Shown here: positions 41,779 through 49,186 of the stretch, in pieces
Numbering within the stretch: the stretch's first letter is position 1
Layout: each line of letters opens with the position of its first letter
NCBI GenBank assembly: GCA_013299045.1
Contig: JAAFJX010000015.1
Location: 1 to 64,000, forward strand
Direction of reading: 5' to 3'
DNA: 64,000 bases
From: Cytophagales bacterium
Lineage (GTDB): Bacteria > Bacteroidota > Bacteroidia > Cytophagales > Bernardetiaceae
The notes under the pieces: model-generated
The model's input: the letters and a program-made list of their open reading frames with translations, nothing else
What the model was told of the DNA's origin: nothing
The model's database searches: none
Position numbers and translations under genes: made by a program

Positions 41779-44700
41779 CTACAAACCTATCTTCTGCCCG
41801 TTCAGGTTCAAGTATTGCACCTTGCCACCAGACTCTAAGCGAATAATAGTGCCTTCATAAAGATATTTGCGCACGTCGTATTCAGCTGGTATTATGATAG
41901 TGCCGTTTGTGGTAGCATAACCAAATGTGCCTTGCGCCCGCACTTGGATTGTGCGAGTTCCAAAACCGGCCATGCCCTCATATTCAGCGGGGCTTTCCAA
42001 TGAGCCATTTTCGTCCAGCATATACCATTTGCCTTCATGTGTGCGCTTCCAACCCACATCTTTGAAAGCTTCGCCATATTTTTTATTGACTACGAGCTTA
42101 TCTTTGCCATTTTCGGCAATGTATTCCATCATTTTAGGTTTCGTAAAGTTGAGTTTGGTCTCATCTAGTTTGCCTTTTGACTCGGCGTTTTCCACTTTTC
42201 GGGTCAGTTCCCAAATCTCGCCAGCTTTGGCAAAAGCAATGCCATTCATGAAGTTCGTAATGCTGTCATAGCGTGCTTTGTAGAGCGGCTTTCCGTCTTT
42301 GCGGAAATGACAAAAGCCGTCGTGGGCTTGGGCTGCAATTTTGCCCTCTACAAAACCTGCACTGACCCGCACCTTACTATCTTGCATTTGTCCTATAATT
42401 TTTGTTTGTGCATCAAAGATAAGGCCGCCATCTCCAACAGCCGCACCCTCACCAAAATCGCTGCTATTTTGGTAGCGGGCTTTGATGACAAGCGCTCCGC
42501 TTCTGTCCACATAACTCCACTGCTTGCTGGTTTTGCCGAGCTTCACACGCCCATAGCCACCCGCGAATGGCTGTGCTTGCGCAAACTGATGTGTAATTTT
42601 TAAGTTACCTTGCAAGTCCAGATAGCCCCAAAGTTGCCTGGAAACATCATCGTCTGCCGAAAGTGCAGGCGCAAGCCCCTCTGAGAATAGTCCCAGCGCT
42701 CTGTAAGCAAACTTTTTGCCCACTATCTTACCTTCGTTGTTCAAAAAACAACAAAGCATAGTACCTTTCACCTCTTTTTGTGCTACGCAAAGGCCGTTAG
42801 CGTCAAAGGGCTGTATTTGCGAACATTCCGCAGGATATGCCCATGCTCCTTGCTTGTTGATGAGACCCCAGAAACCATTGTCTTGGACGGGTGCAGTGTT
42901 TTTAGAGAAAATTCCAGCATTTTGAAAGCGTGGATTAATGAGCATTTTGCCTGTTTTGTCAATAAAACCCCACTTGCCGTTTTGTTGGACAGCAGCCATG
43001 CCTTCGGCAAATTGTAGCGCGCTGTCGTAGCTAGCTGCAATTTTTGTTTGAGTGCCATCAGTGTAGCCCCATTTGCCATTGGTTTTGAAAGGAATCAATC
43101 CTTCGGCCAGCATTCCGGCGTTGTCGGCCACTAGGGCAGTCAAAACCTCACCCTTGTCATTGAAATAAATAAACTTGCTTTGGTTTTTGAATAATTCAAA
43201 AAGTGCTTGCCCATTTTTATAGAGATACTTCAGTTTGTCATATTCCAACGGGAGAATGACTTTATTCTGAGCCGAAACTACGCCCCATTTGTTATTTTTA
43301 CGCACAACTACGAGCGTATCGTTGTAGGGACTCATGCCCGTAAACTCGTAGTCAAAAGGCACAACAGTTTCACCCTTTAGATTGATGCCGCCGTGTTTGC
43401 TACCTTCCTGAACTGCCGCCACCCCTTTACTATTCTGTGCAACAAATATTTCTTCAAAATGTTCAATTCGAGTATATTTTGGGGTTAAGACGCTCTGCCC
43501 TTTACTGTTAATGTAGCCATAGAGTCCGTCTTTCTGTACTTTAAAAATAGCTTTGCTGTTTTGATAATTTTGCAAGAAATCGCCTTCTATGCTCTCATAG
43601 ACAGTCGGCACAATTTCTTTGCCGGTATGGTCAATAAAGCCAATTTTGCCATTTTTAATCACTTCCGCAAAGCCATACTGGGCTGCATAAACGTTTTCAA
43701 AGTTGGTGATTTGCTCATAAACTGGTTCCACAATAATTTTCCCAGTAGTATTGGCATAGCCAATCTGCTTAAAATTCGGGCGTTTGAGCGGGTCGTTAGG
43801 GTCAGTGAACTTGCCTAAGCCTATCCAGAATACGCCATTTTGAACACTTCCGATATCGTCTGCATTGATTTGAGGAGGCAACACGACCTGGCCTTTTTCA
43901 TTGATAAGACCGCATTGAGGCCCTAATTTAATTTTGGCGAAGCCATTATTGAAATCACCTATTTGATTGTAATTGAACTCCAATATGGTTTGATTAGTAG
44001 GACTCACAATGCCCCAACGCTGGTTTTTGCGCGCCCGAACCAAGCCTTTATGCACTAAGCTCAACCGCTCGTACAGACAGGGAATGCTCAAAACGCCCTC
44101 TTTACTCACTAAGCCTGATTTTCCGCCCTGTATTGCTATGGCATAACCACTAACAAGGGGGCTTAGTGCATCATAGCTGGCCGACACAATGAGTTTGCCC
44201 TCTGTGTTGATGTAGCCATATTTTCCTGCTATTTTAACCTTAGAGAAGCCGTTTTGGAAAGTACCCGCGCTGTCAAAAGTAGCAGGAATAACGAGCTGCC
44301 CCTGTCCGTCTAGGAAGCCTACTTTTCTGTTGCGTAAGCGAACCAAGAGTCTGGTTTCAACAAACTCACCGATGGAGTCAGCCTCGGCCCCACCAAAAAG
44401 TTCGGTCATTTTGCCGTCACGGCTCACAATAGCGTTATAGAGGCTGTCTTTCATAACACGTGCCACACCCGAAAAACGAAAATCGCCAATTTCAATATAG
44501 CTGACGTTTGAACTAAACACCACTTTGCCGTTCACGTGGTCAATAACCGCCGCGCCAATGATGCGCCCGCTCTGGTCGTATTTTCGGCCAAGCGTGAGTT
44601 GGACGTAAGGGTCAAGGCGAATATCATCGTACTGGTCGCCCAGAACAGCCTTGCGTGTGGGGGTAATGAGCAACCATTTTTTGCGGTTATTTTGCCACCA

Positions 44701-46062
44701 ACGAAGACCATTGCCACGCTCAACAACACTGTAAGTAAAGCTGACGCGGTCAGACAAATCTTCAGGGTCAAAGGGTAATTCGGTAAAGTGGTTGTAGTTT
44801 TCTTCACGCAGTTTTTTATCCTTTAGCAGCCATATCACGGATACAGCATTGCCTTTGTAAGCAAGCGCTATATGGTCGTACTCCGACTTAGCATCTAGGT
44901 TGTAACCTACTGATGGATAGAGTTCTAGCAAGTCGTAGTCAGGGGTTATGCTTACTCTGCCCTCGGCATTAATTAAGCCCTCTAAATTGTTTTTGCGTGC
45001 TTTTGTAAAAATACCCTCTTCCGGAAAATCGTAAATTAAATCATACTCAAAAGATGTTTGAACAAGGTCTTTGAGCTTAATAACTCCCCATTTGTCATCT
45101 TTTTTGGCTGAAAACAAGCGCTGTCCTATTGCATGAATGTTTTGATAATTGTAAGCCAATACCTCGCGCCCTTGTTCATCTAACAAGCCAAAAAATTTAT
45201 CTTTTTTGGCTTTGACAAACCAAGCACCAGCCGCCGCCACGTTTTCTATAGGCTGAAAAAGCGTAAATTCAAAGGGCGTAACAATTCGGTTAGGATTCAA
45301 AGAGAAAAGCGCCCACTTATCGGTGTTGTTCTTAACAGCTAAAAAAACGCTAGAAAGAAAATAAAAGTCTTTAACAGGCTCATTGATAACTATTTTGCCT
45401 TCAAAATCCATGAGTTTGTAGCTGCCTGCCTGTCCAAAAAAGATATAACCATTGGACATGGTTTGCGTTTCGGCAAAATTTTGAGCTAGAACCTTGCCTT
45501 GTGCGTCATAGATGATTTTTTCTTTGCCTTTTTGTCCCAAGATAAGATTGCTGCGGTTTGGCAGAAAATTATCTAAATGAGAGAGGCTATCCAAGGTAGG
45601 CTGCACCACAATCTGGCCTTTTGTGCTCGCAAAGCCACATTTACCATTTTGTCTGAATCCGATTAAGTTTTTGTTGAGCGGAATTATATCGTCCAAAATA
45701 GCCTCATACACTTTGTTCTGGCCACAAACCAAACCATATTTTTGTCCGTCTGTAAATTGAACAATGAGCGTGTCCAAGCTTTCTATCTTCGGAAATTTTG
45801 TTGGCAGAATTTCTTGGCCATTGATGCTATAAAGGCCATAAAGCGTGCCATTCCGAGTCAGGATATAGCGGTTATGCGATAGCGCGCCCACTTGGTCAAA
45901 CTGAGGAGGCACAAGAATCTTTCCTGCGGCATTCATAACGCCTTGTTTGTTGCCGCTCTTGATGGGTAGTATTTTGAACTCCTCTTGTGAATAAGCATTA
46001 TCTGCGAGCATAAATAGTCCAAATGCGAAGCCTATTAGCTTTTGGGATATAGAACGAAACAT
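41779..46062 (-). CDS. giant secreted WG-repeat protein (1427 aa)
   Basis: Residues 1-26 form a signal peptide (MFRSISQKLIGFAFG..., ending AYSQ). Almost all of the rest is tandem WG-type repeats of about 45-60 residues, with units such as KWGFIDKTGK, FWGLINKQGA, LWGYLDLQGN, RWGIVSPTNQ, KYGYINTEGK and KIGFIDHTGK, each followed by an I/V-x-P-x-Y/F-D strand. I count at least twenty. WG repeats form beta-structures thought to bind partners; they are often exported in Bacteroidota. No enzyme domain or sorting signal is visible. ATG 46062 is chosen because it alone gives a proper signal peptide. It diverges from the triple-TIR gene across 487 bp. Confidence 0.93.
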   Translation of the reverse strand: MFRSISQKLIGFAFGLFMLADNAYSQEEFKILPIKSGNKQGVMNAAGKILVPPQFDQVGALSHNRYILTRNGTLYGLYSINGQEILPTKFPKIESLDTLIVQFTDGQKYGLVCGQNKVYEAILDDIIPLNKNLIGFRQNGKCGFASTKGQIVVQPTLDSLSHLDNFLPNRSNLILGQKGKEKIIYDAQGKVLAQNFAETQTMSNGYIFFGQAGSYKLMDFEGKIVINEPVKDFYFLSSVFLAVKNNTDKWALFSLNPNRIVTPFEFTLFQPIENVAAAGAWFVKAKKDKFFGLLDEQGREVLAYNYQNIHAIGQRLFSAKKDDKWGVIKLKDLVQTSFEYDLIYDFPEEGIFTKARKNNLEGLINAEGRVSITPDYDLLELYPSVGYNLDAKSEYDHIALAYKGNAVSVIWLLKDKKLREENYNHFTELPFDPEDLSDRVSFTYSVVERGNGLRWWQNNRKKWLLITPTRKAVLGDQYDDIRLDPYVQLTLGRKYDQSGRIIGAAVIDHVNGKVVFSSNVSYIEIGDFRFSGVARVMKDSLYNAIVSRDGKMTELFGGAEADSIGEFVETRLLVRLRNRKVGFLDGQGQLVIPATFDSAGTFQNGFSKVKIAGKYGYINTEGKLIVSASYDALSPLVSGYAIAIQGGKSGLVSKEGVLSIPCLYERLSLVHKGLVRARKNQRWGIVSPTNQTILEFNYNQIGDFNNGFAKIKLGPQCGLINEKGQVVLPPQINADDIGSVQNGVFWIGLGKFTDPNDPLKRPNFKQIGYANTTGKIIVEPVYEQITNFENVYAAQYGFAEVIKNGKIGFIDHTGKEIVPTVYESIEGDFLQNYQNSKAIFKVQKDGLYGYINSKGQSVLTPKYTRIEHFEEIFVAQNSKGVAAVQEGSKHGGINLKGETVVPFDYEFTGMSPYNDTLVVVRKNNKWGVVSAQNKVILPLEYDKLKYLYKNGQALFELFKNQSKFIYFNDKGEVLTALVADNAGMLAEGLIPFKTNGKWGYTDGTQTKIAASYDSALQFAEGMAAVQQNGKWGFIDKTGKMLINPRFQNAGIFSKNTAPVQDNGFWGLINKQGAWAYPAECSQIQPFDANGLCVAQKEVKGTMLCCFLNNEGKIVGKKFAYRALGLFSEGLAPALSADDDVSRQLWGYLDLQGNLKITHQFAQAQPFAGGYGRVKLGKTSKQWSYVDRSGALVIKARYQNSSDFGEGAAVGDGGLIFDAQTKIIGQMQDSKVRVSAGFVEGKIAAQAHDGFCHFRKDGKPLYKARYDSITNFMNGIAFAKAGEIWELTRKVENAESKGKLDETKLNFTKPKMMEYIAENGKDKLVVNKKYGEAFKDVGWKRTHEGKWYMLDENGSLESPAEYEGMAGFGTRTIQVRAQGTFGYATTNGTIIIPAEYDVRKYLYEGTIIRLESGGKVQYLNLNGQKIGL

Positions 46063-46549
46063 AGCTTTTTGTTTTTTTGGGGATAAAAGCATCTTATAGA
46101 ATTTATGTTTTCTTATAGACAGATGCCCAAAGGTGCAAAAAAGTAACCAGAGTCTTTTAAAAGAGGCAAAAAAAATATGAGGCACAGAATATTTTACTGA
46201 GCAACAGTATCCTTTATATTCTGTATCCTGATTGGGTATCTTACCAATTTTGGGCTTCAGATTATTATGTCAAAAAAGCGAAATGGATTTTATAGAGTGT
46301 ACTTGCCCTATACAAGTACTCAAAAATCAGCTAAATGATACTCATGGATTCCGTTTGAATCTTGCTGTATTACTTTTTTAGGTAATTGCTCAATAACCCC
46401 CAAAAATAGTTTTTGACTCTTAAACCTCAATAATTTTAATCTTTTGTTTTGTAAAACCGCCAAAAGAGATGTTATTTGCTCTTCAAATATAACCAGAACT
46501 ATATGCGCATTTGTTTTACCAGTTTTGGCAAATGCTGCTTTTTTACACA
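46063..46549. other. 487-bp divergent intergenic region between the WG-repeat and triple-TIR genes
   Basis: No consensus promoter stands out. On the minus strand CACCTTTG (46135-46128) is a one-mismatch -7 about 70 bp before the WG gene. A 76-codon minus-strand frame (46320-46550) exists but is not well supported. Sequence left of 46320 holds nothing recognised. Confidence 0.5.
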
Positions 46550-49186
46550 ATGCTTATAAAGGACGTTTTCATATCGTATGGCAGACGCGAAAGTTTAGGT
46601 TTTGCTTCCAAACTTTACCAAAAACTGGTAGCAGATGGTTACAGCGCCTGGTTTGACCAAGTTAATATTCCGGCTGGGGACGACTACCAAAAGCGCATTG
46701 ACAATGGCATTGAAAGCGCCCATATTTTTTTGTTCGTCATTGCACCGCGCTCCGTAGAGTCTGTTAATTGTGCCAAAGAGGTAGAACTAGCCATTCAATT
46801 GGGTAAGCGTATTATTCCTATTTTGCATATTCAGCCCGAATCTTCTTCTTGGGCAAAAATGCGTGAGGAAGCGCGTAAAGCTATCCGTAAACGCGACTGG
46901 GTAAGTATGCGTGAGCAGCTAGGCAGCCTAGATGACCTGCGTGCTTGGGCTGATGCGCAAGAATGGGCGAACTTGCAAGATAATTACTTGCTCAAACAGT
47001 GGCAGTATTTCACTGGTTTCCCTTCTTTAGATTCTTTTGAGTCTGCTTTCATAGAGTTGAAAAGCCTCATTGAAAAAAATAAGGATTATACAAGCTATCA
47101 TACACACTTGCTTTTGCAAGCCCTTTATTGGCAAAGCCAGAATTATTCTACACGACTCTTTTTGACTGGACAGGAGCGCCAAAAAGCTGTGGAGTGGTTA
47201 AAAACTGAGTTTAGAGCGCCTGAGCAAGCCCCCTGCGAACCAACTGCCCTGATGGCAGATTTTATTTGTGAAAGTACACAAAATGCAAATAATCAGCAGG
47301 CTGATGTTTACTTTTGCCATGCAGACAACGAACACCTTGTACTGCCCATCAAAAATTATTTGCATCGTTTGGCTTATACGACATGGGACTATACCTCTGA
47401 CCTAGTACCTGGCATAAATATTGACCTGGGAATCAAAAAAGGTATCGCGAATGCTGATAATTTCATCTTTCTAATGACTGAAAGTACGCTCAGTTCAGCC
47501 TCTAATCTCAAAGAACTGGAGTATGCCGTGGCGCTTGGCAAAAGGGTTGTTCCGCTGCTTCTGAATAACCTTGCAGAAACAGACTCCCCAGAAATTATCA
47601 AGCGTTTGCGACCGATTAACTTCAAGAGTTATGCTGCAAACCGAGATTTGGCCGATAGCGAAGCTTTAAAAGACTTACTGCGTGCGCCTATGAGCGAGCT
47701 TATTAGGCAAATAGAGCACGACAAAGCCCATGTGCAAGCCTATACGCTCTATCTCTGCCATGCTTTACGATGGGAGCAGCAAAACAAAGCATTAAGTATG
47801 CTTTTACGGGGTTATGCCTTACAGCAAGCCATTAGCTGGCGCGACTTGGCCCTCAAAAAGGCTCATCAGCAGCCAACAGACCTGCACAAGACATTTTTAG
47901 CCGCTTGCGAACAGCACAAAGACGAGGTAGGGACAGATGTTTTTTTGAGTCATTTGCACGCCGACAATGAATTTGCTCAAAAGTTTAGCGCCGAGTTACA
48001 AATGTTGGGGCATACGGTTTGGCAAGACCGTCCTTATCTGCCCAAAGATGCAGAAATGGCGCAAAGCGAAGTGTTGAAAGGCATAGATAATGCGCTTAAT
48101 TTTTGCGTGATATGCAGCCAGGATACTTCCCAAAGTGCGCAGATTTTGGCTGAAATTGAACACGCCATGAAAGTAGGCAAAAAGTGTTTTGTAGGCATTA
48201 TTGGCAGTGCAGAAGTGCAAAAGCCAGCCGTTCTGGCTGAGGCTACGCATATTGATTTCAGACAAAAGACCTTGCACGAAGGTACTGCCGAACTACTCGC
48301 TAGCCTTAGAGAGGTGGACAAGCACCATTTGCAGTTACATCAGCGTTGGCAGCTAAAAGCGCAGGAGTGGGAAAAAGCCCTCGCAAAAAAGCAACTTTTA
48401 TTGCAACAGAAGGAGACCATTAAAGAGGCCATTAGGCTCAAAACAACAGAGTTTTTGCTCCCTGATGCGCAGTGTATTATGGCTAGGGAGTGGTATGAAG
48501 AGGCTATTGCGCAACAAAAGATACCTATACCTACTGCACTGCAAATAAGCTACATAACAGCTAGTGAAAAAGAGGTTAATCACAAAAGAGAACAGCGATT
48601 CAAACGCGCTAAGCGAAATCAAATATTCTCTATGGCGGTTAGTATTGCTTTGGTTATGTCTATCATTTTTGGTGCATGGGCTATTATTAACCGAATGAAA
48701 GTAGAAAATTTGCGACAAAAGACCATAGAGGCAGCCGAACTCGCCCAAAAGCAAGCAGAAGAGGCCAAAAAGAAGGAAGTTGAAGCCACAGACGCATTGG
48801 CGCGCTTAGAGCTAACGATGCGTAAAATTAAAAACCTGAATCAAAAACTTGAGGAAGTAGAAGCCGAAGAAGTTGTAAGAACTCAGCTAGACAATATGCA
48901 AAATAGAACCTCGGACGCACAACTCAAGCAACTTCAACAAGAGCAAAAGTTAAGCAAGCAAAGGTATGACAACTTGCAGGTGGAGTATGCCAAAGCACTG
49001 CAAGACTATGAAAAAGTTATGGCTAATCTGGTTGTTTATAATGAGCAGCTAGACCAACTCATTGTGGGACTTGAAAGCGATGGTTTCTTTGACAAAAAGC
49101 GTAAAAGCGATAAAATTAGCTCTGAAAAAGCTAAAATTATGTTGAAAGACCTGCAAGCAAAATTTGAAAAATTAGAAAAGAGATAG
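46550..49186 (+). CDS. membrane-anchored protein with three tandem TIR modules and C-terminal coiled coil
   Basis: This 878-residue protein has three TIR-like domains: about 5-105 (KDVFISYGRRES start, Glu77 in NCAKEVELA), 251-339 (ADVYFCHADNEH start, Glu322 in NLKELEYA) and 461-571 (TDVFLSHLHADNE start, Glu535 in ILAEIEHA). The acidic residue used by NAD-cleaving TIRs is kept in all three. After each comes a helical linker of one type: 'ALxWxxQNK...LLxGxxLxxA' and a PT(A/D)LxxxFIxAS end. This linker is known from TIR-WD40 and STAND-like bacterial proteins. A basic stretch (KREQRFKRAKR), one membrane helix (about 691-713) and a coiled coil (718-878) finish it; the positive-inside rule puts the TIRs in the cytoplasm. 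ATG 46550 is preferred over 46511. Role inferred: TIR-based signalling or defence. Confidence 0.88.
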   Translation: MLIKDVFISYGRRESLGFASKLYQKLVADGYSAWFDQVNIPAGDDYQKRIDNGIESAHIFLFVIAPRSVESVNCAKEVELAIQLGKRIIPILHIQPESSSWAKMREEARKAIRKRDWVSMREQLGSLDDLRAWADAQEWANLQDNYLLKQWQYFTGFPSLDSFESAFIELKSLIEKNKDYTSYHTHLLLQALYWQSQNYSTRLFLTGQERQKAVEWLKTEFRAPEQAPCEPTALMADFICESTQNANNQQADVYFCHADNEHLVLPIKNYLHRLAYTTWDYTSDLVPGINIDLGIKKGIANADNFIFLMTESTLSSASNLKELEYAVALGKRVVPLLLNNLAETDSPEIIKRLRPINFKSYAANRDLADSEALKDLLRAPMSELIRQIEHDKAHVQAYTLYLCHALRWEQQNKALSMLLRGYALQQAISWRDLALKKAHQQPTDLHKTFLAACEQHKDEVGTDVFLSHLHADNEFAQKFSAELQMLGHTVWQDRPYLPKDAEMAQSEVLKGIDNALNFCVICSQDTSQSAQILAEIEHAMKVGKKCFVGIIGSAEVQKPAVLAEATHIDFRQKTLHEGTAELLASLREVDKHHLQLHQRWQLKAQEWEKALAKKQLLLQQKETIKEAIRLKTTEFLLPDAQCIMAREWYEEAIAQQKIPIPTALQISYITASEKEVNHKREQRFKRAKRNQIFSMAVSIALVMSIIFGAWAIINRMKVENLRQKTIEAAELAQKQAEEAKKKEVEATDALARLELTMRKIKNLNQKLEEVEAEEVVRTQLDNMQNRTSDAQLKQLQQEQKLSKQRYDNLQVEYAKALQDYEKVMANLVVYNEQLDQLIVGLESDGFFDKKRKSDKISSEKAKIMLKDLQAKFEKLEKR

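Follow-up and report, generated by a model that had tools for sequence, protein, structure and literature searches.

Membrane-anchored triple-TIR proteins of Cytophagales with a putative catalytic, pseudocatalytic and catalytic TIR order

TIR enzymes are switched on by side-by-side assembly, and when the assembling chains are identical, the role of each neighbor is obscured. A gene in the 64,000-nucleotide stretch of Cytophagales DNA analyzed here (the window) encodes three TIR domains in one chain, which raises the questions of what such a fused set might do and which of its members are likely to be enzymes. The gene is one unbroken frame of 878 codons, from an ATG at 46550 to a stop codon at 49184–49186, and in its product, three TIR-linker units precede a membrane helix and a coil-like tail. 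An ortholog (L001) from a MAG (RDZD01000030, 'Cytophagales bacterium'), which begins at the same Met and shows 61% identity over residues 1–877, supports the start. The features of the locus are the following.

46550–49186, plus strand: triple-TIR, single-pass membrane protein, 878 aa (open frame; full-length ortholog)
46562–46912, plus strand: TIR1, residues 5–121 (TIR_2 match; complete Ser9/Asp36/Ser71/Glu77 set)
46778–46780, plus strand: codon of Glu77, equivalent of the catalytic Glu of SARM1 and Cat1 (profile alignment to SARM1; 53/53 relatives)
47066–47290, plus strand: helical linker 1, residues 173–247 (alignments A1 and A3)
47300–47644, plus strand: TIR2, putative pseudo-TIR, residues 251–365 (TIR_2 match; structural model; full set in 0/53)
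47513–47515, plus strand: codon of Glu322, replaced by Ser in the ortholog (alignment, column counts)
47645–47923, plus strand: helical linker 2, residues 366–458 (alignments A1 and A3)
47939–48289, plus strand: TIR3, residues 464–580 (TIR_2 match; Ser467/Asp493/Ser529/Glu535 kept)
48152–48154, plus strand: codon of Glu535 (53/53 relatives)
48290–48568, plus strand: helical linker 3, residues 581–673 (alignments A1 and A3)
48626–48691, plus strand: membrane helix with a basic N-terminal flank, about residues 693–714, hydrophobic segment 695–713 (hydropathy, K/R count)
48692–49183, plus strand: helical, coil-like tail, probably periplasmic, residues 715–878 (low-confidence helix model)

Scored in three separate pieces, the window protein exceeds the curated cut-off of Pfam TIR_2 (28 bits) in each of them, with 78.2 bits for TIR1, 53.2 for TIR2 and 56.0 for TIR3, so that the three tandem TIRs claimed in the preliminary description are all present. 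The helical linkers can be aligned with one another and across the family, as expected if a shared linker type follows every TIR, and the only hydrophobic segment of the protein corresponds to the single membrane helix postulated in the same description. The coiled coil stands in part: the tail of approximately 165 residues, for which the Pfam scan gave no match above the cut-off, is modelled as a long helix, with low confidence, in a full-length prediction (two-row alignment; pLDDT 45; set aside), but its heptad signal is modest (3-4 hydrophobic pattern, 37% vs 22%).

The window protein represents an apparently undescribed family of membrane-anchored triple-TIR proteins. No description of this family was found in the openly licensed literature on bacterial three- or tandem-TIR proteins; an earlier report in subscription papers is possible. 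The 53 non-redundant relatives come from Cytophagales and one cyanobacterial plasmid; nearly all share the three units and their order, and a membrane segment follows unit 3 in all of them. The expectation that this TIR/linker pair normally occurs once per protein thus does not hold here, three being the rule. In the window genome (99.8% complete), all nine TIR_2 matches fall within three ORFs, three in each. The family profile (A1) has matches in 19 of the 291 genomes of the order, from 9 of 115 genera, with at most seven matches per genome, and in a phylum-wide draw of 395 genomes, shallow because two candidates were scored per genome, only the window genome was matched. Plasmid-borne copies are found in Bernardetia and in the cyanobacterium Kovacikia minuta. 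The Kovacikia protein (L042, 7992–11141) combines the triple TIR with a CHASE2 domain and further membrane helices and is the only member found outside Bacteroidota, the genome surveys having covered the order and the phylum.

Separate HMMs built for units 1, 2 and 3 to place the unit order give U1-U2-U3 for the window protein (347, 239 and 218 bits, respectively), followed by the membrane helix. In a few relatives, the first unit scores higher as U3; the tree still groups the first units of the 32 sampled proteins. In the maximum-likelihood tree of 98 units, the first units form one clade (100/97), as do the second units (94/89) and, with the exception of the long-branched L064, the third units. 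The cyanobacterial member belongs within the same triplication, and the single-TIR relative L044 is the sister to the first units. Given these position-specific clades, a single early triplication, with the three positions diverging separately since, appears most likely.

The distribution of active-site residues distinguishes the three positions. In Cat1, an NADase TIR of solved structure, the active site comprises S7, H8, N9, N10, D33, S68 and E74 of one TIR and is also lined by K121 and Y122 of the neighboring TIR (PMC12162218). A Ser/Asp/Ser/Glu set was transferred from the Cat1 residues via profile alignment, in which unit 1 of the family is aligned with SARM1 and unit 2 with Cat1; the alignment of TIR1 with the SARM1/AbTir type passes through the catalytic Glu and Asp. 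The complete set is present in TIR1 of 52 and in TIR3 of 49 of the 53 relatives but in TIR2 of none. In the window protein, TIR1 and TIR3 carry SDSE and TIR2 carries CYSE, with Ser316 and Glu322 retained, Tyr281 in the Asp position and Cys256 in place of the first Ser. The preliminary description had all three TIRs keeping the acidic residue of NAD-cleaving TIRs. For the helix C Glu of the window protein, this is correct (E77, E322 and E535), and the same residue is present in 53, 48 and 53 of the 53 relatives, respectively; TIR2 is the exception, with five relatives lacking the Glu, a Ser in its place in the ortholog, and no Asp in the window protein. The BB loop, on which assembly depends in other TIRs, is different in TIR2 and has drifted far in TIR3 of the window protein, where Arg470, Phe492, Tyr531 and Cys532, residues typical of most relatives, are also missing.

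TIR2 is nevertheless predicted to retain the TIR fold. Its AlphaFold2 model (pLDDT 77.5) matches solved TIRs with a Foldseek probability of 1.00 and with VIA Z up to 17.9 at 1.7–2.1 Å, the nearest solved structure being the SPARTA TIR-APAZ (Z 17.9); the structure check proposed for this doubtful domain thus came out in favor of a TIR. With the fold predicted to be kept and the set incomplete, the constant inner module reads enzyme-like, dead and enzyme-like, in fixed order. The earlier guess that some of the TIRs are structural fits TIR2, which is of the non-catalytic type family-wide, whereas TIR1, and probably TIR3, are likely NAD+-cleaving TIRs.

Among solved structures, the best matches of the unit profiles are SARM1 and AbTir for unit 1, Cat1 and Toll-like receptors for unit 2, and SPARTA for unit 3. 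The unit 2 profile is closer to the TIRs of animal Toll-like receptors and MyD88 than the profiles of the other two units are. The window protein shares with SARM1 and AbTir the alignable catalytic residues of TIR1 but lacks ARM and SAM domains, is membrane-anchored and has three TIRs. Similarly, the Ser/Asp/Ser/Glu of TIR1 and TIR3 is common with Cat1, a CARF-TIR protein of type III CRISPR systems, but the window protein is anchored in the membrane and has no CARF domain, and no CRISPR genes were found among the neighbors examined. SPARTA TIR-APAZ resembles TIR2 in fold and unit 3 in profile; the window protein was rejected as a SPARTA member, having no APAZ domain and no short Argonaute among the neighboring frames of the window. 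Likeness to Thoeris ThsB/ThcB4 is limited to the TIR domain, and membership was likewise rejected (ThcB4, 44.4 bits vs a cut-off of 220; no ThsA-type neighbor in the window), as was membership in the retron TIR group (27.4 bits vs 600, for the TIR part only, and no fused reverse transcriptase). A Tolypothrix plasmid protein (L044; WP_264267989.1), an example of bacterial single-TIR proteins with WD40, has the same TIR, linker type and hydrophobic segment, followed by a WD40 repeat domain, and differs in having one TIR instead of three and no pseudo-TIR. The earlier link of the TIR/linker pair to STAND-like proteins was not recovered, as no STAND domain was found in the window protein.

The part beyond the membrane helix differs between relatives, with outer domains that include WD40, WD40 with hemopexin repeats, WG repeats with FGE-sulfatase, DM9, LRR and CHASE2; some relatives additionally contain many hydrophobic segments. 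In the window protein and several paralogs, this part consists of coils alone. Such coil-only tails are conserved between orthologs but show no significant similarity among paralogs, so that no shared ligand can be argued. More Lys and Arg residues precede than follow the membrane segment in 51 of the 53 relatives, the window protein having 6 in the preceding 15 residues and 4 in the following 15, in agreement with the charge pattern described previously. From this asymmetry, a weak predictor of topology, the TIRs are predicted to be cytosolic and the tail outside. The receptor-like layout proposed at the outset is strengthened by the presence of CHASE2, LRR, DM9, FGE/WG and WD40 domains beyond the membrane helix in relatives. 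CHASE2 is described as an extracellular receptor domain for small molecules (PMC8195603).

The likeness to Toll-like receptors, with TIRs predicted to face the cytosol, a single membrane helix and a putative outer sensor, is one of plan only, not of membership. In Toll-like receptors, the LRR is N-terminal and the single TIR C-terminal; the window protein is reversed, has three TIRs with TIR1 and TIR3 of the enzyme type, and lacks LRR. The relative nearest to the Toll-like receptor plan, although reversed, is L080 (305–3346), in which the triple TIR is followed by a membrane helix, a coil, a WG-like region and leucine-rich repeats. In another relative, L074 (2364–4418), the outer part ends in a DM9 repeat, and WG repeats are the outer domains of L031 and L089. 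If the predicted topology is true, bacteria also possess TIR receptors in the membrane that respond to the cell exterior; by contrast, in the bacterial TIR systems of the literature cited here, signals are sensed inside the cell.

In TIR NADases, the active site is built from two adjacent TIRs and activity requires assembly (PMC12847820, PMC9402430, PMC12162218). It appears somewhat likely that the window protein is a single-pass sensor/effector in which assembly enables the cytosolic TIR triplet to cleave NAD+. The presumed NADase activity, activation by clustering and biological purpose of the family could then be combined as follows. The three TIR-linker units would reside in the cytosol, the helix would cross the inner membrane, and the C-terminal coil would lie in the periplasm, where an envelope signal or partner would change the oligomeric state; the membrane tail would thus control the clustering of whole chains. 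The pseudo-TIR2 would serve as a built-in neighbor, the fused triplet presenting pre-ordered neighbors. Because an adjacent TIR completes the active site, a single triplet-bearing chain could already contain some of the assembly, and clustering of a small number of chains would then suffice, with either NAD+ loss or a small NAD+-derived signal as the output. The chances are about even that these proteins constitute a transmembrane receptor family that parallels the Toll-like receptor plan in bacteria, with a covalent catalytic, pseudo and catalytic TIR triplet and interchangeable outer recognition domains (LRR, DM9, CHASE2, WD40, FGE/WG) and, jointly, that the triplet builds into one chain a piece of the TIR assembly for which other systems need separate chains. 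In this family, the neighbors are fused in a fixed order, two apparently of the enzyme type and one dead, and this arrangement is kept in members from across Cytophagales and in the cyanobacterial one; with fused, diverged TIRs, the role of each position in activation becomes testable by mutation.

The neighborhoods give no functional clue. In the window, the neighbors are a WG-repeat-like protein, an amine-oxidase/desaturase-type enzyme, assigned in the neighbor scan, and a GDP-fucose-synthase-like enzyme, the first and the last being named by eye from the sequence. The WG-repeat-like protein (41779–46185, minus strand; 1468 aa), with an apparent signal peptide, is encoded divergently to the TIR gene and is absent beside the ortholog gene. 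Among 118 neighbors of 24 loci, scanned with padloc and Pfam, no recurrent defense gene was found; the one strong methylase match fits the DNA methylase that neighbors the copy on the cyanobacterial plasmid. Since these neighbors are mostly housekeeping genes, the survey of homologs suggested in the preliminary description lends no support to a defense-island setting. An association with mobile elements was also considered and rejected; two copies are on plasmids, and no relative was found in the phage and viral contigs searched.

A role in defense or cell death may still be proposed. The protein could be a stand-alone anti-phage abortive-infection effector, in which infection is sensed by the coil or by a trigger in the cytosol, and the TIRs then deplete NAD+ and kill the cell. 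Several characterized bacterial TIR NADases are anti-phage effectors (PMC12847820, PMC9402430), the two plasmid copies have transposases, an AbiEii-type gene or a DNA methylase in their vicinity, and the combination of several copies with exchanged outer parts is reminiscent of an arms race. Nevertheless, with the chromosomal copies residing among housekeeping genes, phage relatives missing from the contigs searched and the PADLOC matches of the window protein confined to the TIR domain, this scenario seems rather unlikely. Comparably doubtful is a housekeeping receptor for envelope stress or development, with the TIRs making a low-level NAD+-derived messenger and not acting as killers. The housekeeping contexts, the chromosomal orthologs, the several copies per genome and the use of CHASE2 as the outer domain in the cyanobacterium are all compatible with such a receptor, but no receiver for the messenger was identified, and non-toxic bacterial TIR signaling receptors are not established in the literature examined.

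A non-enzymatic scaffold, in which the TIRs merely recruit proteins, as in Toll-like receptor/MyD88 signaling, and the Glu and Asp are structural leftovers, is improbable. The unit 2 profile does match the TIRs of Toll-like receptors and MyD88, and TIR2 and TIR3 of the window protein evolve fast, with several family-typical residues lost from TIR3. However, the retention of the full set in TIR1 and TIR3 alongside its loss from TIR2 in these same proteins suggests that catalysis is under selection, and the window genome has no other TIR_2 protein available as a TIR adaptor.

In the window lineage, TIR1 appears to be the most constrained TIR, with 85% identity to the ortholog compared with 53% for TIR2 and 57% for TIR3; the tail is 46% identical, and silent sites are saturated in the dN/dS comparison of the two genes. 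These values, together with the long stems of the second and third units of this lineage in the tree and the Glu lost from TIR2 of the ortholog, could indicate a decaying paralog, in which TIR2 and TIR3 are functionally unconstrained in this genus and only TIR1 and the anchor matter, but this is the least probable of the alternatives given that both species keep an uninterrupted frame of 878 codons, TIR3 of the window protein retains Ser/Asp/Ser/Glu, and linker 3 and the membrane helix are 68% and 82% identical, respectively. Under the preferred sensor/effector reading, TIR1 alone may be active in the window protein, considering the drift of the TIR3 BB loop and the lower identity of TIR2 and TIR3.

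Two further loci depart from the usual form of the family. A copy at G534:C259:42490–44109 is broken by an in-frame TAA. In a relative from the same taxonomic order, one frame of 2656 aa (L102, 3359–11326, in G457:C4; TIR_2 matches at G457:C4:220002–225872) has nine TIR_2 domains, together with two linker-only units, ahead of the membrane helix and the C-terminal part.
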